NCBI RefSeq assembly: GCF_900116715.1
Contig: NZ_FPBM01000013.1
Location: 1 to 64,000, forward strand
DNA length: 64,000 nucleotides
Direction of reading: 5' to 3'
From: Polaromonas sp. YR568
Lineage (GTDB): Bacteria; Pseudomonadota; Gammaproteobacteria; Burkholderiales; Burkholderiaceae_C
The stretch's first letter is position 1, and each line of letters starts with the position of its first letter. Made by a program: the position numbers and the translations under genes. Positions 1 through 51,545 of this stretch are shown here, one piece after another. A model generated the notes under the pieces. That model worked only from the letters and a program-made list of their open reading frames with translations. It was not told the origin of the DNA and did no database searches.

Positions 1-33
1 TGCCCGCAGCGAAGCGGAGGGACGCAGACAGTA

Positions 34-101
34 GGGTCGCCTTTTCTTTGCTTACTTTCTTTTGGCGAAGCAAAAGAAAGTGAGTCGCCGCCGGGCGACC
101 C
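34..101. repeat. Nested palindromic intergenic repeat downstream of pyrF
   Basis: An inner hairpin pairs 51-64 (CTTACTTTCTTTTG) with 71-84 (CAAAAGAAAGTGAG) around a 6-base loop, with one G-T pair. An outer arm, GGGTCGCC at 34-41, pairs with GGCGACCC at 94-101. The element lies 3' of pyrF, so it could shape the transcript end. From memory, similar CTTTCTTTTG/CAAAAGAAAG palindromes are dispersed in many proteobacterial genomes; I cannot check this here. The flanking bases 1-33 and 102-154 hold no gene I can support. Confidence 0.6.
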
Positions 102-154
102 CGGCCAGCAGCCTCAACAAAGGGCAAGAGCGCGCAAGCCGGAGCAAGACCCGG

Positions 155-994
155 CTACAACTTCAACGCTTCACCCCGAGCCGACTCCAACACATCCCGA
201 GTCCGCACAGCCTCACGACGCGCGGCTTCAGCGAAGTCGTCACCAGCCGACGCATAAATAATCGCACGGGAAGAATTCACGATGATGGGCGCCCCGGCAC
301 GCCAGCCGGCCTTGACGGTGGCGACGGCATCACCACCCTGCGCCCCCACGCCGGGAATCAACAGCGGCAAAGTCGGTGCAACTGCCCGCACACGCTCAAT
401 CTCCGCCGGATAAGTCGCCCCCACCACCAGCCCAAGCTGACCGTTGAGGTTCCACGGCCCTTGCGCCAGGCGCGCCACGTGTTCATACAGCAGCGGCTCG
501 CCTTCAATGGAGGCAAAGCGCTGGTTCTGCAGGTCGTCGCCGCCGGGGTTGGAGGTGCGGCACAGCAGGAACGCACCCTTGCCTTCGTACTTCAAATACG
601 GTGCGACCGAATCAAAACCCATGAAGGGCGAGAGCGTGACCGCGTCGGCGCCGTAGCGCTCAAAGGCTTCCTTGGCGTACTGCTCGGCGGTGGAGCCGAT
701 GTCGCCGCGTTTGGCGTCCAGGATGATGGGCACTTGCGGCGCGACGCGGCGCATGTGCTCCATCAGGCGTTCGAGCTGGCCTTCGGCGCGGTGGGCGGCG
801 AAGTAGGCGATCTGCGGCTTGAAGGAAATCACCAGGTCGGCGGTGGCATCGACGATCGCGGCGCAAAAATCGTAGATCTTGTTGGCGTCGCCCTTAAGCT
901 TGCCGGGGAATTTGGTCGGTTCCGGGTCCAGGCCGACGCAGAGCATGGAGTGGTTCTGGCGTTCTGCGGCGCCCAGCATGTCGAGGAAATTCAT
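155..994 (-). CDS. pyrF: Orotidine 5'-phosphate decarboxylase
   Basis: This enzyme converts OMP to UMP, the last step of de novo pyrimidine synthesis, in the cytoplasm. The catalytic motif DAKRGDIG is at residues 93-100 (Asp93, Lys95, Asp98), preceded by an FKP segment near residue 59 and followed by LSPFMGFDS and the phosphate-binding PGVGAQGG. Length is 279 residues, matching the longer PyrF subfamily seen in betaproteobacteria and mycobacteria. An upstream in-frame start at 1063 would add 23 residues unlike the family, so the ATG at 994 giving MNFLDML was chosen. It is divergent from the DMT permease with about 83 bases between them. Confidence 0.95.
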
Positions 995-1077
995 GCTTCC
1001 TATTGTAAGAAGGTCGCTCCCCAGCGGATTTCGCCCCAAAACGGGACAATCGACGCAAACCACCGACCTACCCTCTC

Positions 1078-1965
1078 ATGCAACTCTCCCAACGCCAACT
1101 TGTCCTGCTCGTTCTGCTCACGCTGGTCTGGGGTCTGAACTGGCCGGTGATGAAGATCGGGATTGCGGACTTTCCGCCGCTGACGTTCCGGGCGATCTCG
1201 ATCTGGCTGGGCATTCCGGTGCTGGGGCTGGCGATGGTGCTGTTGAAGGTGCCGTTCTTCATTCCGCGCGACAAATGGCGTGAGCTCTTCTGGCTGGCGG
1301 CGGCCAACATGTTTGTCTGGCATGCGCTCATCATCCTGGCGGTGAAAAACCTGAGCAGCGGGCGCGCGGCCATATTGGGTTACACCATGCCGATTTTTTC
1401 GGCGCTACTGGGCGCCTGGTTTTTTGGCGCAAAGCTCAAGCCCCGCAACTGGCTGGGTGTGGCGGCTGCGGCTGCGGGCGTGGCGCTGCTGCTCTGGTAT
1501 GAGTTGACCAACCTGTCGGGCCGGCCGCTGGGTGTGCTGTGCGCGCTGATCGCCGCCGCCGTGTGGGCGCTGGGCACGCAGATGCTGCGCAAGACCACGA
1601 TACCGGCCGCCACGCTGACGCTGTCGTTCTGGATGACGGTGATGACGGCCGTGATGCTGACGGTGCTGGGCACGGTGTTTGAGATGCCGCAGTGGAAGGC
1701 GCCTTCACCTACGACCTGGGCGGCGATTCTTTATAACGCGGTGCTGATTTTTGGTTTTGCGCACGCGGCCTGGTTCACGCTGGCGCGCGCGCTGCCGCCG
1801 GTGGCCTCGACGCTGAGCGTGATGATGATTCCCATCCTGGGCGTGTTCTCAGGCGCGCTGGGCCTAGGCGAAGTGCTGCACTGGCAGGACTGGGCTGCGG
1901 TGGTGTTGATGGTGGTGGCGATTGCCTCGGTGCTGGCGCCCAGCCGGGACGCCGCCAAGACTTGA
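1078..1965 (+). CDS. EamA/DMT-superfamily permease
   Basis: This is a 295-residue integral membrane protein with about ten hydrophobic segments arranged as two EamA-like halves (roughly residues 8-140 and 150-288). The first half starts with the family-typical LVWGLNWPVMKIG. Such permeases export or import small metabolites such as amino acids or nucleoside-like compounds; the substrate cannot be read from the sequence. It is convergent with the UDG-like gene, whose stop lies only 6 bases away. The family call is secure; the substrate is unknown. Confidence 0.85.
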   Translation: MQLSQRQLVLLVLLTLVWGLNWPVMKIGIADFPPLTFRAISIWLGIPVLGLAMVLLKVPFFIPRDKWRELFWLAAANMFVWHALIILAVKNLSSGRAAILGYTMPIFSALLGAWFFGAKLKPRNWLGVAAAAAGVALLLWYELTNLSGRPLGVLCALIAAAVWALGTQMLRKTTIPAATLTLSFWMTVMTAVMLTVLGTVFEMPQWKAPSPTTWAAILYNAVLIFGFAHAAWFTLARALPPVASTLSVMMIPILGVFSGALGLGEVLHWQDWAAVVLMVVAIASVLAPSRDAAKT

Positions 1966-1971
1966 GAAAAA

Positions 1972-2766
1972 TCAGCTGGGCGTACTGGTGACCAGGCTCA
2001 CGGCCAGGCACAGGTCGTCCCACGCCTTGGCCTTGTCGATGGGGTTGCGCAGCAAATAGGTGGCGTCGTAAGTCAACACGGTTTTGGCGCCGTGCAGGCC
2101 ATGCACCTGGCCGCGCAGCTTGCCAAAGGGCTCGCTGGACTGCAGCAGGGCTTGTGCGGCCAGGCGGCCCATGACCAGCACCACGTCGGGCTTTGCGGCC
2201 GCCACCAGCGCCGGCAAGGCCTCGGGCAGGCTGGCACCCACGCCGGCCGCAGCCCCGCGAGCCAGCGGCGCGAGCAACACCACACCGGCCTTGTTCAAAC
2301 GCGCGGCGCGCAGCATGTTGTCGAGCAGTTTGCCGGCCTCGCCTTCAAACGGATTGAAGGGTCCGCGCTGCAGCGCGGCGGCCGGCGTTTCAGCCAGCAC
2401 CAGCCAGCGTGAGCCCTCGCCATGCGCGGCATCGGCGTACAACGCCTGGGCTTCACCCATGCTCCAGGCGCCGGTGGCGGCGGCCTCACGCACAGGGGCC
2501 TGCGGTACGGCCGTTACGGGGGCCGCAGGTGCGCGAGCGGGGATGGTCCGCGCAGGAGCGGCTTCACGGGGCGCAGACGCAGGCGGCGCAGCGGGCGCAG
2601 GCCTCACTTCAGGCACAAATTCGGCTGCAACGCCCGCAGGACGAGCGTAACCCGCTCCTGAATCAATAGCAGGCGCCGCATCAGGCACAGGCGATGCAGG
2701 CTGCCACACACGCACGCCCATCTCGCGCAACATGGCGCGCTGGCGTTTGTCGAGGACGAGGCTCAT
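1972..2766 (-). CDS. Divergent uracil-DNA glycosylase-like protein (family 4 fold)
   Basis: A 264-residue protein with a Pro/Ala-rich, probably disordered segment at about residues 22-98 and a UDG-like C-terminal domain from about 100. PFNPFEGEAGKLLDNML (136-152) corresponds to the family's G-x-PFVGRAGQLL segment, and TYDATYLLRNPIDKAKAW (232-249) to the region around the HPS motif. The GEAPG loop reads AETPA, HPS reads YDA, and the only cysteine is Cys253, so the four iron-sulfur cysteines of family 4 are absent. It may be a cluster-free or non-catalytic relative. It is the last gene of tsaB-rimI-udg. Residues 33-50 are encoded by a 54-bp dispersed repeat. Confidence 0.7.
   Translation of the reverse strand: MSLVLDKRQRAMLREMGVRVWQPASPVPDAAPAIDSGAGYARPAGVAAEFVPEVRPAPAAPPASAPREAAPARTIPARAPAAPVTAVPQAPVREAAATGAWSMGEAQALYADAAHGEGSRWLVLAETPAAALQRGPFNPFEGEAGKLLDNMLRAARLNKAGVVLLAPLARGAAAGVGASLPEALPALVAAAKPDVVLVMGRLAAQALLQSSEPFGKLRGQVHGLHGAKTVLTYDATYLLRNPIDKAKAWDDLCLAVSLVTSTPS
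2617..2670 (-). repeat. 54-bp dispersed element, copy D (in frame in UDG-like gene)
   Basis: The copy starts GCTATTGATT and ends GCAGCCGAATTT on the minus strand, exactly 54 bases, and aligns without gaps to the copies at 4016-4069, 8933-8986 and 10959-11012. It is read in frame as 18 residues (AIDSGAGYARPAGVAAEF) in the disordered linker of the UDG-like protein. The frame is the same one used by the copy in cnoX. Confidence 0.75.
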
Positions 2767-2776
2767 GGGGTGGACC

Positions 2777-3256
2777 TCACAGCGCCAGGCTCATGACCAC
2801 GGCGTCTTCGCGCGCGGAAGGGCCGTTGGGGTAGTAGTTGCGGCGCGTGCCGACATGGCGAAAGCCGTAGGTCTCATACACCGCCTTGGCGCGCACATTG
2901 CTCACGCGCACTTCCAGCCACAGCCACTGCGCGCCCTGGCCGCGCGCCCACAGGGCCAGCCCGTCCAGCATGACGCGGGCCCAGCCCTGGCGCTGGTGTT
3001 CGGGTGCCACGGTGATGTTGAGCAGGTGCACTTCGTCAACGCCCTTCATGGCGACGAAGTAGCCCAACAACACGGCATTGGGTGCGTTGCCGGCGGTGAG
3101 CAGCTGTGCCTGGTAGCCGGCGTTGAGCGAATCGGTGAAGTTGCCTTGTGTCCAGGGGTGGTCGTAGGCGGTTTTTTCCACGCGCACCACCTCGCCCAGC
3201 CATTGCGGAGTCATGGCTTCGAACTGGGCTTCGAGGGGCTTGAGGATGGCGTTCAT
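2777..3256 (-). CDS. rimI: Ribosomal protein S18 alanine N-acetyltransferase
   Basis: A GNAT-fold enzyme that acetylates the N-terminal alanine of ribosomal protein S18. The 159 residues show the beta-4 strand and acetyl-CoA loop LLNITVAPEHQRQGWARVML at about 79-97 and the C-terminal YETYGF segment typical of RimI. The start overlaps the end of tsaB by 4 bases, indicating translational coupling, and tsaB-rimI is a widely conserved pair. The pairing makes RimI more likely than a generic GNAT acetyltransferase. Confidence 0.9.
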   Translation of the reverse strand: MNAILKPLEAQFEAMTPQWLGEVVRVEKTAYDHPWTQGNFTDSLNAGYQAQLLTAGNAPNAVLLGYFVAMKGVDEVHLLNITVAPEHQRQGWARVMLDGLALWARGQGAQWLWLEVRVSNVRAKAVYETYGFRHVGTRRNYYPNGPSAREDAVVMSLAL

Positions 3257-4014
3257 GAAGAAAGGGGCGGGGCCTCGGCAAGGAGCTTGGCGGCCTTGAC
3301 CCGCTCGCGCTCTTCGGTGGTGAGCGCTACTTTATCGCGAACGTAAAGCGGCAGGGCGAGGTCAGCGCTTACGCACTGGCCGGCGGCTGCCAGTTGGGGC
3401 GCCAGGCGCAGCAGCGCGGTGGCGGTGGGCAGGGCCTCGGCCTGCGCAAAAGCGGCGAGCCCGGCAGGCAGCCGGCCGGCGTACACCGCAAAGACATTGC
3501 CCGCCAGCAGGCCGGCTGATGCATCGGGCACGCAATCTTCAGGCCGCACCAGCTCGCATTCGCCAAGCGCGCGCCACTGCGCCCCGCTGAAGTCAAAGCC
3601 CTGCACATACATCTCGTCTATGCGGGCGTCGAGCAGCGCCGTCACGCGCAAAGACTTTTTCTCAGCGCCATCACCCTGAAAGCGCGCCTCTTCGGCCACA
3701 GCCATCAGCGTGTCAATCGGCAGCACGGGAATGCCGGCACCTTGGTTGGCGCCCAGCGCCAGACCCTGCGCCACGGCGCAGGCAGTGCGCAGTCCGGTGA
3801 AGGAGCCCGGGCCGCGGCCAAAGGCGATTGCGTCCAGCTCGCCCAGCGCCAGCCCCGCCTCGGCCAGCAGCGCCAGCACCGCCGGGATCAGCGTGGTCGA
3901 GGCCTGCGCGCCGCCGGGGCCGCTGTGCTGCCAGATGCGCACGCCGTCGGTCACCGCGACCGACATGCGGTCGGTGCTGGTGTCAAAGGCGAGGAATTTC
4001 GAGAATTGGGGCAT
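3253..4014 (-). CDS. tsaB: tRNA threonylcarbamoyladenosine biosynthesis protein TsaB
   Basis: TsaB partners with TsaD and TsaE to transfer the threonylcarbamoyl group to A37 of ANN-decoding tRNAs. The N-terminus LAFDTSTDRMSVAV is the ASKHA-fold phosphate-1 region and GRGPGSFTGLR at 66-76 is the family signature. Length, 253 residues, is normal. It leads a minus-strand operon with rimI and the UDG-like gene. A 54-bp dispersed repeat ends one base upstream of the ATG, so the leader and ribosome binding region lie within or beside that element. The enzyme making the TsaB/D/E substrate, Sua5, is also encoded in this window (7484-8479). Confidence 0.93.
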   Translation of the reverse strand: MPQFSKFLAFDTSTDRMSVAVTDGVRIWQHSGPGGAQASTTLIPAVLALLAEAGLALGELDAIAFGRGPGSFTGLRTACAVAQGLALGANQGAGIPVLPIDTLMAVAEEARFQGDGAEKKSLRVTALLDARIDEMYVQGFDFSGAQWRALGECELVRPEDCVPDASAGLLAGNVFAVYAGRLPAGLAAFAQAEALPTATALLRLAPQLAAAGQCVSADLALPLYVRDKVALTTEERERVKAAKLLAEAPPLSS

Positions 4015-4015
4015 T

Positions 4016-4069
4016 AAATCGGGCTCCAGCCCTTGTAAATCGAGCGTGAACGGCTACCAAATTAATAGC
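4016..4069 (-). repeat. 54-bp dispersed element, copy A (tsaB leader)
   Basis: The minus strand reads GCTATTAATTTGGTAGCC through to GGAGCCCGATTT, 54 bases, gapless against the other three copies. It ends a single base before the tsaB ATG, so the element would form the last part of the tsaB 5' leader. No separate Shine-Dalgarno is visible other than the GGAG inside the element, at 4026-4029. Confidence 0.7.
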
Positions 4070-4169
4070 GTGTTACATATCCACCGGGAAGAGGTCCGGC
4101 GGGCAATCCCCTGATTATCCGCGCCAACGCCTCGCCGAGGCTCAGACGGCCAGCCGCGATAATCCACAC

Positions 4170-5675
4170 ATGACCCAAGACCCGCAGCGCCCACGCACGC
4201 CGCACCTGATTGCGCTGAGCGTGCTGGCCGCCGCGCTGGCCCTTTTCCAGACCGCCGCCTTCGCGCAAGCGCCGCGCCTGCCGGCTCCAATCGAAAAAGC
4301 CCTGTCACGCGCCAAGGTGCCGCGCGATGCGGTGTCCATGCTGGTGGTGGAAGCCGCCACAGGCAAACCAGTGCCGCGCCTGAGCTGGCGCATCGACACG
4401 CCGATGAACCCGGCTTCCGTCATGAAGCTGGTGACCACCTACTCGGCACTGGACGCACTGGGCCGCGACTTCACCTGGAAGACGAAGGTGATCCTGGACG
4501 GCAGCACCTCGGGCGGGCTGCTCAATGGCAACCTGGTGGTGCAGGGCGGTGGCGACCCCAAGCTGGTGGTCGAGCGCCTGCAGGCCATGCTGGCCGAGGT
4601 GCAGGCCGGCGGCGCGCGCGTGATTCGCGGCGACATCGTGCTGGACCGCAGCGCTTTCAGCGTGCCGCCCACCGACCCGGGCGAGTTTGACGGCGAGCCG
4701 CTGCGGCCCTACAACGCGCGGCCCGACGCGCTGCTCATCAACTTCAAGTCCATCGTGATGACCTTCACGCCGGATGCGACCAACAGCCGCGCGCTGGTGC
4801 GCTACGAGCCGCCGCTGGCCGGCGTGCAGGTGGGCGCCAGCGTGCCCATGGTGCGCGTGGCGCGCTGCGGCGACTGGCGCAGCGAGCTGCGCGCCAGCGT
4901 TGAGAACCCGGTCAACATTGAATTCCTGGGCACCTATTCGTCGGCTTGCGGTGAAAAAATCTGGCCCAGCGCCTATGCCGACCCGGCAAGCTTTGCCGCG
5001 CGCGCCATCGAGGGCTCGTGGCGGCAGCTGGGCGGCCTGCTGACCGGCGTGGCGCGCGACGCCACGCCGCAAGAACTCGCCATGCTGCGCAGCACCGGCA
5101 CCATCTCGGGCCAGAAAGCCGCCATCCGGTTTGAGCACCAGTCGCCGCCCATGCTGGAGGTGGTGCGTGACGTCAACAAGTACTCCAACAACGTGATGGC
5201 CCAGCACATCTTTTTGACGCTGGGCCTGCATGCCAACCTGGGCCAGCCCAAAGCCGGCACGCTTGAGTCGGCCCACGCCGCGCTGGCCGCCTGGTGGAAA
5301 AAAACCCTGCCGGGCACAGCGCCGCCCCTGATGGACAACGGCTCGGGCCTGAGCCGCAATGAGCGCGTGACGGCTGCCGGCCTGGGCGCCCTGCTGCTGC
5401 ACGCCGCCAAAAGCCCGCTGGCCGCCGACCTGGCCGATTCGCTGCCCGTGGCGGGCGTGGACGGCACGCTGCGCGAACGCGGCAAGAGTGTGGCGGGGCA
5501 GGCCTTCCTGAAGACCGGCTCGCTGCGCGATGTGACCGCGATTGCGGGCTACGCCAACGGCAACAGCGGCACGCGCTACATCGTGGTGGGCCTCATCAAC
5601 CACCCGAACGCCGGCGCTGCGCGCCCGGCGCTGGATGCCTTGCTGGAATGGACCGTCAAAGAGGCCGCCCGATAG
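4170..5675 (+). CDS. dacB: D-alanyl-D-alanine carboxypeptidase/endopeptidase (PBP4, DacB)
   Basis: A periplasmic class C penicillin-binding protein that trims peptidoglycan stem peptides and cleaves cross-links. A signal peptide covers about residues 10-33, ending AFAQA. The three active-site motifs are present: SVMK (Ser83, Lys86), SNN (339-341) and KTG (448-450). The 501 residues include the large insertion between the first two motifs that is typical of PBP4. It is divergent from tsaB with 155 bases between, part of which is a 54-bp repeat. Confidence 0.93.
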   Translation: MTQDPQRPRTPHLIALSVLAAALALFQTAAFAQAPRLPAPIEKALSRAKVPRDAVSMLVVEAATGKPVPRLSWRIDTPMNPASVMKLVTTYSALDALGRDFTWKTKVILDGSTSGGLLNGNLVVQGGGDPKLVVERLQAMLAEVQAGGARVIRGDIVLDRSAFSVPPTDPGEFDGEPLRPYNARPDALLINFKSIVMTFTPDATNSRALVRYEPPLAGVQVGASVPMVRVARCGDWRSELRASVENPVNIEFLGTYSSACGEKIWPSAYADPASFAARAIEGSWRQLGGLLTGVARDATPQELAMLRSTGTISGQKAAIRFEHQSPPMLEVVRDVNKYSNNVMAQHIFLTLGLHANLGQPKAGTLESAHAALAAWWKKTLPGTAPPLMDNGSGLSRNERVTAAGLGALLLHAAKSPLAADLADSLPVAGVDGTLRERGKSVAGQAFLKTGSLRDVTAIAGYANGNSGTRYIVVGLINHPNAGAARPALDALLEWTVKEAAR

Positions 5676-5841
5676 CCTCAGGCTAAGTACACGGCTGCAA
5701 GTTATCCCTGCCGGGTGTGGACAAAGCTGTTGATGACCGCGCGGCTTGCGGGGCAAAACACCATTTGGCGCGGCCTGCGCCACAATGCCTCAAATTTGGG
5801 CAGTTGCCTGCCCGGCAAGACAGGCTGAACGGAGCACCACG

Positions 5842-6186
5842 ATGCAAGCACCCCCTCCCCTCGAAGGTAACAAGGCGTACTGCGTGGTGCAGACCGCCAC
5901 GGCCACGGAAGAAGAAGCCCAAAGCCTGGCGCGCGGCATTGTGGAAGCCCGGCTGGGCGCCTGCGTGCAGATTCAGGCCATCCAGAGCATTTACCGCTGG
6001 CAGGGCGCGCTGTGCAACGAAGCTGAATTTCGCCTGTCGATCAAGACACGGCAGGCGCAGTTTGCGGCGCTGGGGCGCTTCATTCGCGCGCACCACAGCT
6101 ATGAGACGCCGGAGATTGTGCAGATACCGATCACCGCCGGCTCCGCGGCGTATCTGCAGTGGATTGATGAAGCAACTCAGGGCTGA
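5842..6186 (+). CDS. cutA: CutA family divalent-cation tolerance protein
   Basis: A small cytoplasmic protein (114 residues) of the trimeric CutA1 family, linked to copper and divalent metal tolerance, with a PII-like fold. Recognisable elements are VEARLGACVQI, the IYRWQG segment and the C-terminal SYETPEIVQIPI stretch. The ATG at 5842 was chosen because GGAG at 5831-5834 lies at good spacing and the family begins near here; an upstream in-frame ATG at 5746 would add 32 non-conserved residues. The molecular role of the family remains debated. Confidence 0.92.
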   Translation: MQAPPPLEGNKAYCVVQTATATEEEAQSLARGIVEARLGACVQIQAIQSIYRWQGALCNEAEFRLSIKTRQAQFAALGRFIRAHHSYETPEIVQIPITAGSAAYLQWIDEATQG

Positions 6187-6261
6187 TCGCCCAAGGCATC
6201 TTATTGAAGCGAAGAAGACCGGTCACGTGTTCTGCATGATGCAGGCCCGCCTGCGCAGCCG

Positions 6262-6753
6262 CTATTTCCGGACGGCAAAAATCGCGTCATACGCAGGCTC
6301 TGAAAAACCCTGCACACGCTGCTCACCCGCGACCAGAAGCGGAACTCCCTTGCCACCGCCGGCCTGGACCAACGCGGCAATTCCAGCCTTCGTGTCGACG
6401 TCGATCTCCTGGTAAGGAACACCCTTGCGGGCCAAATAGGTTTTAGCCAGCTTGCAATAGCCGCACCAAACGGCGGAATACAAGACCACGCCGCTGACGG
6501 CCACCGGTGCGGGCGAAGCAGCCCGCATCCTGCGCAACTGCTCGACGTAAGAGGTGCTGACTGCGGGCAGCGCGCTAGTGGGCAGGTTTTCAAACTTCAG
6601 GGTTTTCTGGACGCGCCCGTCCGGCGGCGGGCGGTCGCTGTAAACCGTTTTTCCGTCGGGTCCCACGGATTTGTAGAGCGTCTGGGCGTGTGCCGCCATG
6701 ACCGACAGCCACCCTGAAAGCAGGAGGATGCCAAGCTGCGCGAGGAATCTCAT
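6262..6753 (-). CDS. Exported DUF4124-glutaredoxin fusion protein
   Basis: A 163-residue protein with a signal peptide at residues 1-23 (ending AHAQ), a DUF4124 module at about 24-46 (LYKSVGPDGKTVYSDRPPP) and a glutaredoxin-like domain from about 86 with the redox motif CGYC at 97-100. An exported glutaredoxin would act on periplasmic disulfides or thiols, although glutathione and an electron source there are uncertain. The start at 6753 was preferred over the ATG at 6801 because it gives a clean signal peptide. It lies 3' of the LysE-type gene on the same strand. Confidence 0.8.
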   Translation of the reverse strand: MRFLAQLGILLLSGWLSVMAAHAQTLYKSVGPDGKTVYSDRPPPDGRVQKTLKFENLPTSALPAVSTSYVEQLRRMRAASPAPVAVSGVVLYSAVWCGYCKLAKTYLARKGVPYQEIDVDTKAGIAALVQAGGGKGVPLLVAGEQRVQGFSEPAYDAIFAVRK

Positions 6754-6800
6754 GGAAACACCCCAGCGGCACGCACCGCGCAATTTTGGCGTGGCACGCA

Positions 6801-7424
6801 CTAAGACCGCGCCTCGCGCAGTGACGCCGCCAGCAGCCCCAGGCCCAATGCGCCCACGGCCACCGAGGCGATGCGGTCAGCCGTGCCGCGCGTGCGCGCA
6901 TAGGCGGCCCGAACCCGCTCGCGCGAGAACAAATATGCCAGCAATGTGTGCCAGCACAGCGCGTTGGCCACAATCATGGCCACTGCCGCGACCTGCAAGG
7001 CCGGGCTGGGTGAAGCCGGAAACGAGGCCGCAAACACGCTGCCGAAAAAGAGCGCCGACTTCGGGTTGGTGATATTGGTGAGAAAGCCCAGGCGGAACGC
7101 GGCGGCCGATGACACCGAAGGACCGCCATCACCGAGTGCCAGCCCACCCGACCGCCAGAGCCGGCTGGCCACATAGAGCAGGTAAAGGCCGCCGGCCACC
7201 TGCAGCACCAGGCGCAGACCCGGAAAGATCTGGAACACGGCATTGACGCCCAGCACCGCGCACAGCGCCCAGATGGCCGCACCCACCGTCACGCCCAGTG
7301 CCGCGAACACCGCGCTGCGCGCGCGGTCGCTGGCCGCGAGTTGCGAGACCAGCAACACGTTGGCGCCGGGGCTCATCATGGCCGCGACGTGGAGAAACCA
7401 GATGGTGAGGAGGATGGAGAGCAT
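6801..7424 (-). CDS. LysE/RhtB family amino-acid exporter
   Basis: A 207-residue inner-membrane protein with about six hydrophobic segments. The N-terminal MMSPGANVLLVSQ and the central GFLTNITNPKSALFFGS are hallmark LysE/RhtB motifs. Members export amino acids such as lysine, threonine or homoserine lactone; the substrate here is not determinable. It sits between sua5 and the exported glutaredoxin on the same strand. Confidence 0.88.
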   Translation of the reverse strand: MLSILLTIWFLHVAAMMSPGANVLLVSQLAASDRARSAVFAALGVTVGAAIWALCAVLGVNAVFQIFPGLRLVLQVAGGLYLLYVASRLWRSGGLALGDGGPSVSSAAAFRLGFLTNITNPKSALFFGSVFAASFPASPSPALQVAAVAMIVANALCWHTLLAYLFSRERVRAAYARTRGTADRIASVAVGALGLGLLAASLREARS

Positions 7425-7483
7425 GGGGTCACCTTGAGATGCGGGGTGTCAGCCCATGATAGCGGCCCCGCCAAAAATGCGCT

Positions 7484-8479
7484 TCAGCTCGCGGCAGCGC
7501 GCCCCAGCCGGTCGCGTACGCCGTCCCACTCGGCATCCACCGGCGGGTTTTCGATCCAGATCAGCTTGACGCCTTTGGCGTCGAAGTCGCGCAGCACGGC
7601 AAAGAGTTGCTGCGCGGTGGCGAGGGCATCGTCAGGCATGCGGCGGTACAGCACACGCTCCGACTTGATGCGCACAATGCTGCGCGCATACACCGCGATG
7701 TGGGCTGCGTCGGCGCCCAGCAGGTCGAGCGCGGTCTGAATTTGCCGTGCATCCATCAGGCGCACCTTGGCGTCGGGCGCGTAATGCGCCTCCAGCGTGC
7801 CGGAGGCGCGCGGTGTGTCGCCTACATCCGCATCGCTCTCTTCGAATTCGTCTTTGCCCAGCACGGCCTCACCGCACGCGGCCTCGAGCTGCGCGCGGGT
7901 GAGGATGCCCGGGCGCAGCAGCACGGGCCGCCCGCGCGTGCAGTCGACGATGCTGGACTCGATGCCGACATCGCAGGGCCCGCCGTCTAGCACGAGCAGG
8001 CTGTCGCCAAACTCCTGCTGCACGTGCTGAGCGGTGGTGGGGCTGACCCGGCCAAAGCGATTGGCGCTGGGGCCGGCCACGCCCGTGTCGCAGGCTTTCA
8101 GAAAAGCCAGCGCAACGGGGTGCGACGGGCAGCGCAGGCCAATCGAATCCTGGCCACCGGCAGCAGCTGCCGCCACGCCCGGCTTGCGCGGCAGGATCAC
8201 GGTGAGCGGCCCAGGCCAGAAGGCTTTCATCAGGCGCGCGGCAAAGGGCGGCACGCTGCTGGCGTAAGCCTCTACATGCGCCGCGTCGGCCACATGCACG
8301 ATGAGCGGGTGGTCTGAAGGCCGGCCCTTGGCTTCAAAAATGCCGGCCACAGCCTTGTCGCTGGAGGCATCGGCGCCCAGGCCGTAGACCGTCTCGGTCG
8401 GGAAGCCGACAAGGCCGCCTGCCTGGATGCGGCGCGCAGCCTCGAGAATCGCTTCAGCGTCCGTGCCGGGAAGAATCAT
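7484..8479 (-). CDS. tsaC: L-threonylcarbamoyladenylate synthase (Sua5 type)
   Basis: This enzyme makes threonylcarbamoyl-AMP from threonine, bicarbonate and ATP for tRNA t6A37. The N-terminal YrdC domain has GLVGFPTETVYGLGADAS near residues 22-39, the KGRPSDHPL loop and STVD-like IESSIVDC. A C-terminal Sua5 domain makes the 331-residue protein the long Sua5 form rather than the short TsaC form. Its ATG overlaps the purK stop by one base (ATGA), so it is translationally coupled to purE-purK. Confidence 0.93.
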   Translation of the reverse strand: MILPGTDAEAILEAARRIQAGGLVGFPTETVYGLGADASSDKAVAGIFEAKGRPSDHPLIVHVADAAHVEAYASSVPPFAARLMKAFWPGPLTVILPRKPGVAAAAAGGQDSIGLRCPSHPVALAFLKACDTGVAGPSANRFGRVSPTTAQHVQQEFGDSLLVLDGGPCDVGIESSIVDCTRGRPVLLRPGILTRAQLEAACGEAVLGKDEFEESDADVGDTPRASGTLEAHYAPDAKVRLMDARQIQTALDLLGADAAHIAVYARSIVRIKSERVLYRRMPDDALATAQQLFAVLRDFDAKGVKLIWIENPPVDAEWDGVRDRLGRAAAS

Positions 8480-9729
8480 CAGAGGTGGCCCAGGCCCGGC
8501 AGGCCGAGGATGGCCGCGGCCTTGCGCGCGGTGGCTTTGACGCCGGCGATGTCGGCGCCGGTGATGTTGAGGTGGCCCATCTTGCGGCCGGCGCGTGCTT
8601 CGGTTTTTCCGTAGAGGTGCAGATGCGCACCGGGCAAAGCCAGCACGGCCTGCCAGTCAGGCGTGCGGGCTTTGCCCTGGGCATCAAACCACACATCGCC
8701 CAGCAGGTTGAGCATGATGGCCGGCGAATGCTGGCGCGGCTGCGGCAACGGCAGCCCCGCCATGGCGTGCACCTGCAAATCAAACTGCGAGACGTCGCAG
8801 GCGTCCATGGTGTAGTGGCCGCTGTTGTGCGGTCGCGGCGCCATTTCATTGACGATCAGCGCGCCGTCGGCACTGCCGTCGTCGACCAGGAAAAACTCGA
8901 CGCACAACACGCCGACGTAGCCCACATGATTTGCTATGGTTTTGGTAGCCGCCTGCGCCCGCTCGGCGAGGGCTACAGGCATATTTCCTTCATAAGCCTC
9001 GGTCACAGCAAGGATGCCGTCCACATGCACGTTGCGCTGCGGCGCAAAGCCGACGATGTCGCCGTTCCAGCCGCGCGCCACGATGACGGAGCACTCGGCT
9101 TTCAGCGGCAGCATTTTTTCGAGCACGCAGGGTACGCGTTGAAGGTCAGCCCAGGCGGCGGCGAGTTCGGTTGCATTCTTGACGCGAACCTGGCCTTTGC
9201 CGTCGTAGCCCATGCGGGCGGTTTTGAGGATGCCGGGCAGCAAGTTGGCTGGCACGGCTTCGAGCTGCGCCTGCGTTTCGATCACTGCGTAGGGCGCGCA
9301 AGTCACGCCGGCCAGCACACCCGATTCGGCAGCGCTGGCGGTGAAGTGCGATTTTTCTTCGATACGGTTTTGCGCGATGCCCACGGCGGCGGCGCCCGGC
9401 GCGACGGGCAGGCTGGCGGCCAGTGCCTTCAGCGCGCCGGCCGGCACGTTTTCAAACTCGGTGGTGACGGCGGCGCAGAGAGACGCCAGCCTGGCCAGGC
9501 CCGCTTCGTCGCTGTAGTCGCTCTCGATATGGTGATGGCTGACCAGGCCTGCGGGGCTTTGTGCGTCCGGGTCCAGCACCGCGGTGAAGTAGCCCAGGCG
9601 CTGCGCGGCGTGCACAAACATGCGGCCCAGCTGGCCGCCGCCCATCACGCCCAGCGTGGCGGGCTGGCCGGAGGCGGAAACGGTGCCGGGAAAAACAGGA
9701 AGGCCCGTGGGAAGGCTTGGAAGGCTCAT
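8479..9729 (-). CDS. purK: 5-(carboxyamino)imidazole ribonucleotide synthase
   Basis: This ATP-grasp enzyme carboxylates AIR to N5-CAIR in purine synthesis. The 416 residues show the nucleotide-fold start [12 protein letters not shown], the ATP-grasp lid region [10 protein letters not shown] and the metal-binding [11 protein letters not shown]. It overlaps purE by 4 bases upstream and sua5 by 1 base downstream. Residues about 248-265 are encoded across an antisense copy of the 54-bp dispersed element. That stretch uses codons rare for this genome (ATA, GTA), yet the protein keeps family-like sequence there. Confidence 0.95.
8933..8986 (+). repeat. 54-bp dispersed element, copy C (antisense inside purK)
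   Basis: The plus strand reads GCTATGGTTTTGGTAGCC through to GGCTACAGGCATATTT, 54 bases. It shares GGTAGCCG, the central CGC and the GGGCT-ACAG segment with the other copies, again without gaps. It is opposite in orientation to purK. It is the most diverged copy, and the purK protein is not visibly lengthened here. Confidence 0.6.
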
Positions 9730-10235
9730 GCGGGGGGCAATGTCATGGCGTGGGCGGCGGCGGTTTGCTCGGCGCGGAAGGCCTGCAGTTGGGTGGCCAG
9801 CGCCTTGTCGTGCAGGGCCAGCATGGCCACCGCAAACAGGGCGGCGTTGGCCGCGCCGGCGTTGCCGATGGCAAAAGTGGCGACGGGAATGCCTTTGGGC
9901 ATTTGCACGATGCTGTGCAGCGAATCGACGCCTTGCAGGTGTTTGCTGGCCACGGGCACGCCCAGCACCGGTACGGCGGTTTTGGCGGCCAGCATACCGG
10001 GCAGGTGGGCTGCGCCGCCGGCGCCGGCAATGATGGCCTGCAGGCCGCGGCCCTGGGCGCCTTCGGCATAGGCGAACAGCTCATCAGGCATGCGGTGGGC
10101 CGACACCACGCGGGCCTCGTGCGCCACGCCGAACTGCGTGAGGATCTGCACGGCGTGCTGCATGGTCTCCCAGTCGCTGCTGGAGCCCATCACCACGCCC
10201 ACCAGGGGTTTTGCCGAATTGTTGCTTGTTGTCAT
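9726..10235 (-). CDS. purE: N5-carboxyaminoimidazole ribonucleotide mutase
   Basis: PurE class I moves the carboxylate of N5-CAIR to give CAIR. The 169 residues contain the active-site segments [10 protein letters not shown] (13-22) and SAHRMPDE (45-52, His47) and the glycine-rich [13 protein letters not shown]. The ATG at 10235 gives the standard family start; an open frame continues upstream to 10982 but runs antisense to cnoX and lacks homology. purE leads the purE-purK-sua5 operon with a 4-base overlap into purK. It is divergent from cnoX with about 156 bases between. Confidence 0.95.
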
Positions 10236-10391
10236 GCGGGGACCTTCAAGGCCGGGGTTGCAGGCTGCTTGCCCGTAACCCCTGATTTTAAGGGCAGGCC
10301 ACCGGTAGGCCGGGCCCTGCGTGCTACGCTCTTGCCTCCCAGGAGACTCACCGGTTGAAACCGGCCCCTGACACCCCAACTCTGCAAGATC

Positions 10392-11291
10392 ATGATCGAC
10401 GTCACCATTGCCAATTTTGAAGCGGAAGTCGTTACGGCTTCCATGACCACGCCGGTGCTGATCGACTTCTGGGCGCCGTGGTGCGGCCCCTGCAAGTCGC
10501 TGGGCCCGATTCTTGAGAAGGTCGAGGTGGAATACGCCGGCCGCTTCAAGCTGGTCAAGATCGACTCCGATCAGGAGCAGCAGCTGGGCGCAGCCTTCGG
10601 CATCCGCAGCATCCCGACCTGCATCCTGATGGTCAACGGCCAGCCGGTGGACGGCTTTGCCGGCGCACTGCCCGAGGGCAAGGTCAAGGAATTCCTCGAC
10701 AAGCACCTGCCGCCGGCCGATGAACTGCCTGGAGAGCCCGAACTGACGCTCGAAGAAGAGCCCACCGACCCCGCCGCCGTGCTCGAGAAGCTGCAGCACG
10801 CCGTCGCCGCCAACCCGGCCGACGACAACGCCCGCTTTGACTATGTGAAGCTGCTGTTGCAACTGGGCCGCGAAGACGACGCCAAGGTGGCGTTTGCGCC
10901 GGTGATCGCACAGACCACGGTGGTGCGGCGGTTTGACTCGCTCAAGCGCTGGATGGACGCTATTGATTTTGTAGCTGTTCACGCAAATGATGCGGGGGCT
11001 GCAGCTGGATTTGATGCCAAGATTGCGGCCAACAAGCGTGATTTTGACGCCCGCTTCGGCAAGGCCCGCTGGCTGATGGCGCAGCAGCGCTGGACCGACG
11101 CGCTCGATGAGCTGCTGGACATCTTGATGCGCGACAAGGCATGGAGCGAAGACCTGGCACGCAAGACTTACATCGCCGTGCTCGACATCATGGAAGCGCC
11201 CAAACCCAAGGTGGCTGACGGGCAGATTCCGCCGGAAGACCCCGTCGTGGCGACTTATCGCCGGCGCCTCAGCAGCGTCGTGTTGAGCTGA
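10392..11291 (+). CDS. cnoX: Thioredoxin-TPR co-chaperone (chaperedoxin, CnoX/YbbN-like)
   Basis: A 299-residue protein with an N-terminal thioredoxin domain (about 1-108, active site WCGPC with Cys31 and Cys34) and a C-terminal TPR-like helical domain (about 125-299). CnoX proteins protect unfolded substrates from oxidation and hand them to chaperones. The CGPC motif, absent in E. coli YbbN, suggests real thiol-disulfide activity, as reported for other CnoX proteins. Residues 190-207 are encoded exactly by a 54-bp dispersed repeat read in frame ([18 protein letters not shown]), with AT-richer codons than their surroundings. Confidence 0.9.
10959..11012 (+). repeat. 54-bp dispersed element, copy B (in frame in cnoX)
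   Basis: The copy begins GCTATTGATTTTGTAGCTG and ends GCAGCTGGATTT, exactly 54 bases, gapless against copies A, C and D. It coincides with codons 190-207 of cnoX and is read in the same frame as copy D in the UDG-like gene. The two peptides share the pattern AID-x2-A-x2-A-x2-AG-x-AA-x-F. Confidence 0.75.
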
Positions 11292-11321
11292 GGCGTCGCC
11301 AGGGCCGGCTTGCCGCGGGCT

Positions 11322-11708
11322 TTAGTGCCCAAACAAAAGCCGGCTGAGGTTAAACGCCATGCCGGCCATAAAGGCCTGAAACACAATGGCGCGCCCGGAC
11401 CATGGCGCCGCGCCCGGCGCAATGGATCTGGGCCTGTTTCTTCGCCACAGCAGAATCAACAGCGCGGCCAGCAGCGGGCTGAGCAAAGCGTTGAGCCATT
11501 GAAGAACAGGTTCACGCAGGGCCAGCAGCGGGATGAAATAGACGCTGGCAAGTCCCAATGCAAAACCGAGCGCCGTTCCCACCAGAAGGTCACCCAATGG
11601 ATTTGCCTCTGGGCGTGTGCGCAGCGATTTGCGCAACCCAAGGTCAAACAACTCTGAGAAAAGAGTCAGTACACCCTCAATCAGGATCTCGGCGATGAAC
11701 TCAAACAT
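11322..11708 (-). CDS. Small integral membrane protein of unknown function
   Basis: I do not recognise a named family. The 128 residues hold three or four hydrophobic stretches (about 38-58, 68-88 and 108-125) separated by short charged loops such as LRKSLRTRPE and WRRNRP, typical of an inner-membrane protein. It is convergent with cnoX (30 bases between) and lies upstream of nothing obvious on its strand except purC ends. A start with an amphipathic N-terminal helix (MFEFIAEILIEG) looks natural. Confidence 0.6.
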   Translation of the reverse strand: MFEFIAEILIEGVLTLFSELFDLGLRKSLRTRPEANPLGDLLVGTALGFALGLASVYFIPLLALREPVLQWLNALLSPLLAALLILLWRRNRPRSIAPGAAPWSGRAIVFQAFMAGMAFNLSRLLFGH

Positions 11709-11741
11709 TGGCAGCCGTCCTGCGCCGAGCTTAGCGGCAGT

Positions 11742-12650
11742 TCAACCCTTCAAGCGCGTCAGGGCTTCCTGATATTTCGCAGCAGTCTTTTCCACAACGT
11801 CGGCCGGCAGGCGCGGCGCAGGTGGGGTTTTATCCCAGGGTTTGCCGTTGATGCGCACGGCCTCCAGCCAGTCACGCACAAACTGCTTGTCGTAGCTGGG
11901 CGGGTTCTGGCCGGCTGCGTAGGCGGCTTCATAACCCTCAATCGGCCAATAGCGTGAGGAATCGGGCGTCAGCACCTCGTCCATCAGCGTGAGCGTGCCG
12001 TCTTCGTCGAGGCCGAATTCGAACTTGGTGTCGGCAATGATGATGCCCTTGGTGAGCGCGAAGGCGGCGGCGGTGCTGTAGATCTCGATGCTGATCTTTT
12101 TAATCTGCGCGGCGAGTTCGGGGCCGACGACCTTCACCACCTGCTCGTAGCTGATGTTTTCGTCATGCTCGCCGGCTTCGGCCTTGGCGGCCGGCGTGAA
12201 GATGGGTTCGGGCAGTTTGCCGGCGTTTTTGAGGCCCGCGGGCAGCGGCACGCCGCACACGGCCTGGCTGTCCTGGTATTCCTTCCAGCCGCTGCCGGCC
12301 AGGTAGCCGCGCACCACGGCCTCGACCGGGATGGGCTTGAGGCGCTTGACCAGCATGGAGCGGTTCACGACCTGCGGCACTTCAGCCGGGGTGACCACGC
12401 TTTCGGGCGACTCACCCGTGAGGTGGTTGGGGCAGATGTGGCCGAGCTTGCCGAACCAGAACAGCGCCATTTGCGTGAGCAGCGCGCCCTTGCCGGGAAT
12501 CGGCTCGCCCAGGATGACATCGAAGGCGCTCAAACGGTCGCTGGCCACCATCAGCAGCCTGTCTTTGCCCACGGCGTAGTTGTCGCGCACCTTGCCGCGC
12601 GCCAACAGGGGCAGGGAGGTGAGGGCTGAGGTATGGAGTGCTTGGGTCAT
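11742..12650 (-). CDS. purC: Phosphoribosylaminoimidazole-succinocarboxamide synthase
   Basis: SAICAR synthase condenses CAIR with aspartate using ATP. The 302 residues carry [13 protein letters not shown] at about 16-28, SDRLSAFD, the signature [17 protein letters not shown] and [10 protein letters not shown] with [12 protein letters not shown]. The length is that of the longer SAICAR synthases common in betaproteobacteria and yeast rather than the 237-residue E. coli type. It follows fba, from which it is separated by a strong terminator, so it probably has its own promoter. Confidence 0.95.
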
Positions 12651-15000: not shown

Positions 15001-15074
15001 CCGGCTTTGCCGGGCCGCAGGCGCTGTCCCCTGCAAGGGGAAAAGGGCTACACGAAGTGAGCCCGATAGGGGTG
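15001..15074. repeat. GC-rich dispersed repeat, copy 1
   Basis: Reads CCGGCTTTGCCGGGCCGCAGG, a variable middle, then GGGCTACACGAAGTGAG and GATAGGGGTG. Shared landmarks with copies at 15086 and 18063 are GGCTTTGCC, an ACACGAAGTGA box about 40 bases on, and a final GGGG tract. It lies between the esterase lipoprotein gene and pyk, in a 240-base region that has no gene I can support. Confidence 0.65.
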
Positions 15075-15085
15075 TGCCAATTTTT

Positions 15086-15159
15086 CGGCTTTGCCGGGCC
15101 GAAGGGCGGGCGGCCCCCTCGGGGGGCAGCGCATTACACGAAGTGAAAAGCGTGGGGGC
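15086..15159. repeat. GC-rich dispersed repeat, copy 2
   Basis: Reads CGGCTTTGCCGGGCCGAAGG, then GGCCCCCTCGGGGGGCAG, TACACGAAGTGA and CGTGGGGGCT, ending one base before the pyk stop codon. It is in tandem with copy 1 (11 bases apart) and nearly identical in the centre to copy 3. The CCCCC-TC-GGGGG core can form a small hairpin at the 3' end of the pyk transcript. Confidence 0.7.
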
Positions 15160-16668: not shown

Positions 16669-16699
16669 CTTGCGGCACCGGCTGTCGCCGTGCCGCAAG
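16669..16699 (-). terminator. Hairpin downstream of pgk
   Basis: CTTGCGGCAC (16669-16678) pairs with GTGCCGCAAG (16690-16699), a perfect 10-bp stem with an 11-base loop, 43 bases 3' of the pgk stop. On the minus strand it is followed by TCCCATTTTCG, a weak T-tract, so termination may be partial and allow some pgk-pyk readthrough. Confidence 0.55.
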
Positions 16700-16741
16700 C
16701 GTGACGGGCACAAACCGCTCCTGATAAAGGAGCAAGCCACC

Positions 16742-34929: not shown

Positions 34930-35589
34930 ATGCCGAAATCCCGTTACGCCGCCTCAGCGATTTTTTCAATGCTTCTGATGGCGCTGGCCCCAGTGACATT
35001 TGCGCAGCCAGCGATGAATTCAACAGCAACACCGGAACCGCTGCCCATGCGCAACCTGCAGATCGAAGTGCGCCAGGTGCGAAACAACGCCCTGTCCCAA
35101 AGTGCGCTGGGCGCGCAGGGCGGCGTTACCTTGCAACCCGGCCGCTCGGGCGCCAACGTCAACATCACGGCGCAGGACAACCAGCGCAGCGATTCGCGCG
35201 ACCTGGTCCAGCGCGTGCTGGTGCTCAACGGCCGCAACGTCAACATCAACCTGGGCAACAGCCAGCCGCTGCGGCTGGTGCAGGCGCGTCAGGCGAGCAC
35301 CGTGTTCATCGATGCCAACAGCGGCTTTGCGGCCAGGCCGACCTGGTACGGCGGCGACAGCGCGGAGCTGGAACTGGCCGCGGGGCAGGCCAGCCGCACA
35401 GGCTCGTCACCGATGGCGCCCTTGTCCTCGTCATCGACCAACACTTCGCTGAGCGTGCGTCTCGGGGAATGGGTCACCGTGGCCGAATCGGACGACGCCG
35501 GCGCCGGCAGCAGCAGCGGCATCGCCGACAGCCGGCAGTCCACACGGCGCGAGGGGATGCGCGTAGAAGTCCGCCTCTCCGTGCGTTAA
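34930..35589 (+). CDS. Exported protein of unknown function
   Basis: I do not recognise a named family. The 219 residues have a signal peptide (about 1-25, ending TFAQ). The mature part is polar, with NLQIEVRQVRNN, NVNITAQDNQ and LVLNGRNVNINLGNSQPLRL, a pattern like beta-rich secretin or pilus-associated short domains, then a Ser/Thr/Ala-rich stretch (SSSSTNTS) and a basic tail. ATG at 34930 has GGAG 6 bases upstream and yields the clean signal peptide. It is convergent with the MliC-like gene, 5 bases between the stops. Confidence 0.7.
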   Translation: MPKSRYAASAIFSMLLMALAPVTFAQPAMNSTATPEPLPMRNLQIEVRQVRNNALSQSALGAQGGVTLQPGRSGANVNITAQDNQRSDSRDLVQRVLVLNGRNVNINLGNSQPLRLVQARQASTVFIDANSGFAARPTWYGGDSAELELAAGQASRTGSSPMAPLSSSSTNTSLSVRLGEWVTVAESDDAGAGSSSGIADSRQSTRREGMRVEVRLSVR

Positions 35590-50342: not shown

Positions 50343-51533
50343 ATGACAGACCCCTTGCACACCATGCCCAACTTCAAACTCAAACCCGTTGCGATTGCCT
50401 TGATAGCTGCCGTCGTAGTGATTGCCGGGGCGGCTGCCCTGTTTATCCCGAAATCCGATGCCAAGCCGGACCCCAAGGCCGCGACTTCCAAGCCGGCCCT
50501 GACCGTCGCCACCGCGCTGCCGGTTCAGGTGAACCTGCCGGTCAAGCTCAGCGCCAACGGCAACATCACCGCCTGGCAGGAAGCCGTGATCGGCTCCGAG
50601 TCCAACGGCCTCAGGCTGGTGCAGGTGCAGGCCAACGTGGGCGACCAGGTCAAGGCCGGGCAGGTGCTGGCGGTGTTCTCGGGCGACAGCGTGCAGGCCG
50701 ACACGGCCCAGGCCCGCGCCAGCCTGATCGAGGCCCAGGCCAATGCCTCGGACGCCGCCGACAACGCCGCGCGCGCCCGCACGCTGGCAAGCTCCGGCGC
50801 CTTGAGCGAGCAGCAGATCAACCAGTACAACACGGCCGAGCAAACCGCCAAGGCGCGTGTCGAAGCGGCCAAAGCCGTGCTGGACGCCCAGCAGCTGCGC
50901 GGCAAGAACACACAGGTGCTGGCGCCCGACAGCGGCGTGATTTCAGCACGCACCGCGACCGTCGGCTCTGTCGTGCCCCAGGGCACCGAGCTCTTCCGGC
51001 TGATTCGCGGCGGACGCCTGGAATGGCGCGCGGAAGTCACCTCCGCCGAGCTGGGCCGCATCAAGGCGGGCACCATGGCCACGGTTGTCGCCGCCAGCGG
51101 CGCCGAGCTCAAAGGCAAGGTGCGCATGATCGCCCCGAGTGTCGACCCGCAAACGCGCGCCGCACTGGTCTACGTGGATTTGCCGGTCTCTGCCGGCATG
51201 GCGTCGCCGGCCAAGGCCGGCATGTTCGCCCGCGGGGAGTTTGACCTGGGCACAACGCCGGCGCTGACCGTGCCGCAACCCGCGCTGGTGGTGCGCGACG
51301 GTTTTAACTATGTGTTCAAGCTCAACCCCGACAACCGCATCAGCCAGCTGAAGGTGCAGACCGGCCGCCTGGCCGGCGACCGGCTGGAGATCACCTCCGG
51401 CCTCGCAGCCGATGCACGCGTCATCGTGAGTGGCGCTGGCTTTCTGAACGACGGGGACCTGGTCCGCGTCAATGATGAGGCACCCAGCAAGCCCGCAGCG
51501 CCTGCCAGCCGGGCGCAAGCCGCTACCAAATAA
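50343..51533 (+). CDS. RND efflux periplasmic adaptor subunit
   Basis: A 396-residue membrane-fusion protein with an N-terminal anchor span (about 14-36), a lipoyl-like barrel (LRLVQVQANVGDQVKAGQVL), a helical hairpin with A-rich coiled coil (about 118-175), a second barrel half (VLAPDSGVISARTATVG) and beta-barrel domains. It links the inner-membrane pump to the outer-membrane channel. An alternative Met is 7 codons downstream. Confidence 0.92.
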   Translation: MTDPLHTMPNFKLKPVAIALIAAVVVIAGAAALFIPKSDAKPDPKAATSKPALTVATALPVQVNLPVKLSANGNITAWQEAVIGSESNGLRLVQVQANVGDQVKAGQVLAVFSGDSVQADTAQARASLIEAQANASDAADNAARARTLASSGALSEQQINQYNTAEQTAKARVEAAKAVLDAQQLRGKNTQVLAPDSGVISARTATVGSVVPQGTELFRLIRGGRLEWRAEVTSAELGRIKAGTMATVVAASGAELKGKVRMIAPSVDPQTRAALVYVDLPVSAGMASPAKAGMFARGEFDLGTTPALTVPQPALVVRDGFNYVFKLNPDNRISQLKVQTGRLAGDRLEITSGLAADARVIVSGAGFLNDGDLVRVNDEAPSKPAAPASRAQAATK

Positions 51534-51545
51534 GGAGCACTCCAG

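Follow-up and report, generated by a model that had tools for sequence, protein, structure and literature searches.

Which process sets the same short stretch of DNA repeatedly inside and between genes of one bacterial chromosome? The question is raised by the first 64 kb of contig NZ_FPBM01000013.1 of Polaromonas sp. YR568 (the window), part of a genome of 4.83 Mb that is designated G000 here. An earlier inspection of the letters had described four copies of a 54-bp dispersed element in it. We read these copies as recognition sites for a putative DNA-binding or DNA-uptake factor, evolving in place like DNA uptake sequences (DUS), and for this reading as a whole the chances appear evenly balanced. 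Its core, namely that the sites serve recognition, change in place and form dialects, is probable. Uptake or self-recognition drive as the cause is put forward tentatively.

Architecture and abundance of the unit

Copies of the element in G000 were read in register without gaps, using the best 92 of at least 150 places matched by a sequence-only model built from 22 copies, fetched with their flanks. The unit measures about 65 bp and contains two palindromic boxes, the 17-bp Box A (GCTAT-N3-TT-N3-TAGC) and the 11-bp Box B (GGGCTNNAGCC), separated by a spacer of 20 bp. The outer box ends lie 48 bp apart; a weaker ATTT is seen near positions 51–54 and AAA near 62–64. Positions 13–16 are mainly GTAG, ATAG or GGAG, and the GC content of the unit is 45–48%. 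A two-box scan of named genomes matched at least 118 stretches. In the 80 loci read, 79 of 82 matches carried the 20-bp spacer with 31 values, from 5 to 35, allowed. Within 400 kb of the sister species G149, which is 90% identical to G000 over purK–ybbN, 51 box pairs occurred at spacer 20 and no more than three at each remaining value between 0 and 60; 400 kb of G000 gave 10 pairs at spacer 20 and again at most three at the others. The fixed length that the original prediction had proposed was thus recovered, and it arises from the constant distance between Box A and Box B. The value of 54 bp itself was not retained as the unit length, since information spans about positions 0 to 64 and the 54-bp limits are not true ends.

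Weak sites were also observed in head-to-head pairs sharing one palindromic Box A (locus L426 in G360, 11483-/11514+; locus L430 in G049, 9969-/10000+). Such pairs may hint at how sites arise or at how the factor is arranged.

An RNA hairpin, small RNA or riboswitch was considered and rejected. Among the 92 copies, base pairing did not clearly exceed column composition for any helix; the strongest couplings connect neighbouring positions and positions 11 and 14. Fold z-scores of ten sequences, from -1.73 to 0.33, are unremarkable, and an Rfam scan of window positions 1–12000 yielded two sub-threshold matches, neither of them on a site. Orientation preference is absent as well. From the missing covariation, the ordinary folds and the Rfam result, the unit resembles a double-stranded DNA element recognised by a putative protein and not an RNA.

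Allowing two mismatches at most, the 17-bp left part alone matches 118 times in the whole of G000, compared to 7 times for the reversed control. In unselected 400-kb stretches, a matrix search detected 32 sites in G000, 66 in G149 and none in shuffled sequence; simple scaling extrapolates these numbers to about 390 and about 740 sites per genome. With the strict two-box pattern (at most three mismatches), 473 sites were obtained in G149 (control 1) and 425 in Polaromonas sp. P2-4 (control 0). The genomes G048 and G363 are 84–85% identical, yet keep only 6 and 7 sites by this pattern (controls 0). A matrix trained only on positions 2.0–2.4 Mb of G149 assigned 23.0, 43.3, 47.2 and 38.0 bits to the four window copies; the best score was -5.1 bits in 20 shuffled 64-kb windows and 15.8 bits elsewhere in the window (12–64 kb). 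Together with the genome-wide excess, these scores rule out chance similarity of the four copies and confirm the excess over shuffled sequence that a profile search had been expected to reveal.

With model R1 at an E value of 0.001, matches were obtained in 28 of 37 same-genus genomes; 24 genomes representing other families of the order gave none. At 0.0001, they were obtained in 98 of 299 genomes and 50 of 126 genera of the family. Records with two-box matches, among the 80 loci read, are mostly from Polaromonas and Rhodoferax; further ones come from Xenophilus, Simplicispira, Xylophilus, Ramlibacter, Variovorax, Comamonas and some unclassified bins, and a 42-bp two-box match in a Berkelbacteria record looks like chance. 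The genome and cross-genome searches bear out a real family with one constant length, dispersed over genomes of the Comamonadaceae type, as the original prediction had indicated. Base composition was discarded as the cause of site loss, since GC and the GC content at third codon positions (GC3) overlap between genomes with and without sites. A phage origin was considered as well; viral matches are few, with two-box sites at 48-bp length in four viral contigs (L471–L474), in which prophage, host flank and phage copies are not distinguished.

Insertion or formation in place

Two of the window copies that lie inside genes allow both possibilities to be compared. The third copy (8932..8996, plus strand) is located within purK (8482–9729, minus strand), in the ATP-grasp domain. 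Of 35 same-genus genomes, 27 carry the site and 8 lack it, and no gap occurs within 14 residues of it in any of them. Even in purK of eight genomes from other families, the length at the site differs by one residue at most. Site-free purK of G048 encodes nearly the same 13-residue peptide, but with GC-ending codons. The empty-site homologues that the original prediction had suggested testing for do exist for purK, but they are gapless and leave no empty site of 54 bp. The fourth copy (10958..11022, plus strand) lies in frame 0 on the gene strand of a thioredoxin-TPR (ybbN-like) gene (10392–11291). Here, the 24 genomes with the site and six of the eight without it align without gaps; the loci of G020, G011 and G008 do not span the site.

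Codon choice changes sharply at these positions. In the 27 purK genes with the site, GC3 of the site codons is 0.36 compared to 0.83 in the rest of the gene, and all 119 other windows reach at least 0.69. An ATA codon is found in 27 of 27 genes with the site, and ATT or ATC in eight of eight without it. For the 24 ybbN genes with the site the corresponding values are 0.25 and 0.81, all 81 windows being at 0.62 or above, and GC3 at the site position is 0.84 in the eight genomes without it. Where present, the site overrides the genome's codon choice in purK and ybbN.

Orthologues of G048 were compared for 20 of the 22 coding copies, counting length differences over the site and 14 residues on each side (no. 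34, whose G048 locus is not in the set, and no. 82, without a G048 match, were excluded). Six showed no length difference: purK and members of the thiamine-phosphate kinase, NAD synthase, SpoU methylase, AddA/UvrD-type helicase and branched-chain transporter permease families. It had been proposed that 54 bp, corresponding to 18 codons, is inserted or exchanged with preservation of the frame. A clean insertion of a constant-length unit was not seen relative to G048, the differences ranging from 0 to 22 residues at the 20 coding sites and from 52 to 147 bp at nine intergenic sites. With gapless orthologues and variable length differences, none of exactly 18 residues, a constant 18-codon insertion was rejected.

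Four neighbouring genes with the site masked served for a tree, in which the site-less lineages are basal and G048/G363 group with G000/G149/G374 at supports of 0.99–1.00; some inner supports are low. Within the genus, parsimony on this tree suggests one gain inside an existing reading frame and separate later losses in G048 plus G363 and in G003.

Between sister species, the sites stay put while their middle takes on a species-specific dialect. G149 carries sites at all four window places, and that of the second copy is also occupied in G006 and G004. At intergenic places, 14 were tried in G149, of which one gave no usable locus; sites were present at 12 of the remaining 13, the place of copy no. 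4 being without one. The boxes are kept and the middle 17 bp (positions 18–34) shift, the G149 copy being more G149-like in 12 of 12 orthologous intergenic pairs. This comparison covers two species only, G000 and G149; five of the 12 pairs have a member in the training stretch, and the two members of pair no. 24 are nearly alike. In the syntenic stretch of the window no site with up to five mismatches was found in G048 and G363, where the stretch from G363 stops short of the uracil-DNA glycosylase gene described below.

Copies within one genome did not arise by recent duplication. The most similar pair of the 92 is 82% identical, and column-permuted sets give a mean maximum of 0.77 (range 0.73–0.83). 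These values bear on a further explanation, according to which patches are copied from site to site by microhomology-directed replacement or ectopic conversion. Such copying would account for the six coding sites replaced without change of length and for the common dialect within a genome, and to this extent the form of exchange considered in the original prediction suits the gapless sites. No donor copies are seen, however: near-identical pairs are absent (maximum pairwise identities of 0.82, 0.73 and 0.80 in three copy sets), and the purK and ybbN site scores grade between species from about 20 to 71 bits. We regard patch copying as very improbable.

Position of the sites and proposed recognition

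Genes were called with our own codon-usage caller. The 92 top copies in G000 comprise 22 within called genes, 8 across a gene end and 62 between genes, counting among the last group the copy at the uracil-DNA glycosylase gene, whose start was trimmed by the caller and whose frame is open through the site. In the unselected stretches, 22 of 32 sites (G000) and 44 of 66 (G149) are intergenic, where only 16% and 12% of the bases are non-coding. The intergenic sites have a median distance of 32 bp from a 3' end; convergent gaps hold 19 of 44 in G149 and 5 of 22 in G000, divergent gaps 2 of 44 and 2 of 22. The positional bias that had been suggested for examination is therefore real, with sites concentrating between genes and near gene ends. 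At least three sites (copies no. 4, 7 and 8) stand between a stop codon and a terminator-like hairpin as judged by eye. Strands are unbiased (19/13 in G000 and 29/37 in G149 for the 400-kb stretches, 61/57 for the 118 pattern matches), the spacing between sites in the two 400-kb stretches is compatible with an exponential distribution, i.e. without regularity, and relative to co-directional genes 13 sites are on the same and 16 on the opposite strand. Opposite-strand coding copies favour one frame, with 12 of 17 among the top copies and 4 of 5 and 8 of 11 in the unselected stretches. Same-strand copies are in frame 0 in 5 of 5 top copies, but the unselected stretches gave only 1 of 3 and 1 of 5. 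One convergent gap of G000 contains two full inverted sites about 80 bp apart (C14:175902-175955 on the plus and 176039-176092 on the minus strand; loci L055 and L038).

This distribution supports the main rival, a chromosomal protein acting at gene ends. The sites would then be bound by an intracellular protein that organises the chromosome or marks transcription boundaries, in the form of two dimers on two dyads, and would be selected place by place without any drive. The rigid two-dyad architecture agrees with it, as do the short distance to 3' ends, the surplus of convergent over divergent gaps in G149 and the sites placed ahead of terminator-like hairpins. On the other hand, hundreds of sites would each need selection strong enough to override codons and build a motif of 48–65 bp, the near-complete loss in G048 and G363 suggests dispensable sites, and neither even spacing nor strand bias is seen. 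We consider a boundary protein of this kind unlikely.

As originally described, the four copies in the window, each with 54 bp from GCTAT to ATTT and aligning without gaps, were confirmed in place and strand at 2617-2670 and 4016-4069 (minus) and at 8933-8986 and 10959-11012 (plus). The columns reported as conserved hold broadly; the copy at 2617-2670 deviates with GGAGC instead of GTAGC and GCGTTGCAG instead of GGGCT, and the copy at 8933-8986 with TGCGC. The first site, at 2607..2671 on the minus strand, is located within the N-terminal extension of a uracil-DNA glycosylase superfamily gene (open reading frame 1972-2766, minus strand), with frame 0 open; the gene is named by Pfam, its NCBIfam family-4 match being below the cut-off. 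Site 2 (4006..4070, minus strand) adjoins the start of tsaB (4014) upstream; the gap there is divergent, with a D-Ala-D-Ala carboxypeptidase (S13) gene on its other side. It fits the two-box pattern with no mismatch, and the sites in purK and ybbN fit with one each. Box A (positions 1–17) was found by pattern search at 2654..2670 and 4053..4069 on the minus strand and at 8933..8949 and 10959..10975 on the plus strand. For Box B (positions 38–48) the two-box pattern gave 2623..2633 and 4022..4032 (minus) and 8970..8980 and 10996..11006 (plus). Three weaker copies were listed on the minus strand, at 51485..51538 (25.8 bits; possibly decayed or incipient), at 34974..35027 (17.7 bits) and, very weak, at 16680..16733 (12.2 bits).

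Other repeats were observed in the window as well. A strong inverted repeat (ACTTTCTTTTGGCGAAGCAAAAGAAAGT) lies in a gene-end region at 30-110; we presume it to be another dispersed repeat of this bacterial group. A further dispersed repeat, GGCGGGCGGCCCCCTCGGGGGGCAG...TACACGAAGTGA, occurs at 15105-15146 and 18084-18125 with 90% identity, and also at 15028-15062.

Returning to recognition sites that evolve in place, we propose the following mechanism. Each site would be read as double-stranded DNA by a putative sequence-specific factor contacting two dyads about 34 bp apart. The specificity of this factor for the middle of the site would drift between species, and at every locus alleles nearer to the consensus would gain ground, either through selection or through a drive like that of DNA uptake sequences, i.e. 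biased uptake or recombination of site-bearing DNA. Since hundreds of loci are concerned, an uptake-type drive would be likelier than selection. In a lineage that loses the putative factor, the sites would decay, within genes through substitutions and between genes through deletions. In its full extent this would amount to a genome-marking system of Comamonadaceae, with hundreds of two-dyad 65-bp sites spread by drive, a putative factor of shifting specificity, concerted rewriting of the sites, also of those inside metabolic genes, and erasure on loss of the factor. Such a system is possible, though we rate it at somewhat less than an even chance.

A number of observations weigh against recognition sites of the uptake type. 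Codon identity of purK between genomes is not raised within the site (0.62 compared to 0.66), which places the signal in composition and particular codons and not in a frozen sequence. The ybbN genes of G048 and G363 are two residues shorter; G048 orthologues are shorter by 1–22 residues at 14 of the 20 coding sites, and at nine of ten intergenic sites with both flanks matched G048 is shorter by 52–147 bp, copy no. 24 being the one gapless case. (In this comparison 14 intergenic sites were tried, three of them without usable locus, and none of the 11 aligned loci has a site in G048.) Insertion or deletion therefore also plays a part at these places. Loss in G048 and G363 appears more complete than slow neutral decay would produce, by an estimate and not by a test. 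The identity maxima of the copies fall in the upper tail of the permuted sets, reached by 3, 5 and 1 of 200 permutations, and in each of the three sets the spread of identities exceeds all 200 permuted ones; this points to some shared ancestry or to unequal site quality, strong and weak sites being mixed. Two thirds of the sites are intergenic near gene ends, with few in divergent gaps, as would also be expected of elements that act where transcription stops. All 18 genomes tested, the seven site-poor ones among them, have the ComEC family (PF03772), so that site loss does not track ComEC loss, and ComEC-linked competence finds no support as an explanation of presence and absence. Finally, unlike DUS and the uptake signal sequences (USS) of Pasteurellaceae, the unit is bipartite, 48 bp from box to box and about 65 bp overall, and occurs in hundreds and not thousands of copies.

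Several of these points speak for a short mobile repeat, such as a repetitive extragenic palindromic (REP) sequence, a miniature inverted-repeat transposable element or a Rickettsia palindromic element, that once spread by inserting itself and has since aged and decayed. High copy number, dispersal and mostly intergenic position are in accordance with it, as is the shorter G048 sequence at most coding and intergenic sites. Positions 13–16 resemble the head of REPs, which are dispersed, mostly intergenic and carry a GTAG or GGAG tetranucleotide. The Y1 transposase family (PF01797) occurs in all 18 genomes, and identities vary slightly beyond permuted columns. Against insertion stand the gapless purK (27 genes with, 8 without the site) and the gapless ybbN in six of eight site-less genomes, the lack of recent copies and of a covarying helix, and dialects that differ at fixed places. 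Moreover, the Y1 gene is equally present in genomes without sites. An old mobile repeat is improbable, if less so than patch copying. As an observation apart, each of the 18 genomes has at least one divergent Y1-transposase-family gene with an open frame of about 235–310 amino acids, e.g. G000 C19:371459-371758.

On balance we conclude that these are probably recognition sites, able to evolve in place under a DNA-level force from a putative lineage-specific factor. If this holds true, a large bacterial family would possess a self-marking DNA code so far seen only as unexplained statistical motifs, and many loci would switch recognition dialect together between species about 10% apart. Constraint at the DNA level would then be able to dictate the codons of enzymes like PurK. 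The natural knock-outs G048, G363 and G003, beside site-rich sisters, would further allow the factor to be sought by comparison of gene content.

Relation to known systems

Literature searches with literal sequences and keywords turned up no functional account or published explanation of the unit, in agreement with the original prediction, and a keyword search found no paper, in the collection searched, that names both DNA uptake sequences and Comamonadaceae. Likeness is seen to DUS of Neisseriaceae and USS of Pasteurellaceae. According to the available text of PMC1939737, these are dispersed in and between genes without orientation bias, originate by point mutation and not by insertion, and have cores of 9–10 bp in H. 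influenzae and N. gonorrhoeae; PMC3630211 describes thousands of DUS copies and species dialects in the part available. Many dispersed sites in and between genes, the lack of orientation bias and dialects are shared by the present unit. An origin by substitution fits purK, ybbN (six of eight site-less genomes) and five further coding sites, whereas 14 of 20 coding and nine of ten intergenic sites differ in length. The short core of about 9–12 bp expected of DUS and USS was not found, the unit being a fixed two-box structure of at least 48 bp. We do not claim membership in this class, because the unit differs in architecture and size and because ComEC, present in all 18 genomes tested, does not track the sites.

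With REPs moved by REP-associated tyrosine transposases (RAYTs) the unit disagrees in its gapless site-free orthologues, its fixed two-box spacing and the absence of a covarying helix. The conserved imperfect hairpin of REPs was not found. The Y1 family, present in 18 of 18 genomes, does not separate site-rich from site-poor ones and so lends no support to a RAYT-driven REP as the explanation of presence and absence. Rickettsia palindromic elements are in-frame insertions. Copies inside reading frames and the one frame favoured by opposite-strand copies (12 of 17) are reminiscent of them; unlike these elements, six of 20 coding sites are gapless relative to G048 and none is longer by 18 codons.

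BRE, a repeat of Bordetella and Comamonadaceae with some copies inside genes, has full-length Bordetella units of 75–91 bp with a mean of 69% GC, some in tandem, as far as described in the available part of PMC3110155. By description the present unit, with about 65 bp and 45–48% GC, looks different from it. The accessible part of the Rhodoferax ferrireducens paper treats CRISPR as the only repeats.

Close published counterparts are two unexplained novel motifs in the available text of PMC5217627: ATAGCT(N)22CAAAAG in P. naphthalenivorans CJ2, with 125 copies (101 intergenic), and GCTTAT(N)5AAGCG in Acidovorax ebreus, with 114 copies (107 intergenic). They are mostly intergenic, near gene ends and often between convergent genes. 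That text gives two separate statistical motifs, without full unit, origin, dialects or functional account. In register, the CJ2 motif fits at positions 13–46 and the A. ebreus motif at 25–40 of the present unit. Among the 82 loci searched, the CJ2-type pattern has one match (L151), with Box A in register, and the A. ebreus-type pattern none, so that its register fit is a fit of the pattern itself. Judged from these alignments, the two motifs appear to be parts of the unit described here.

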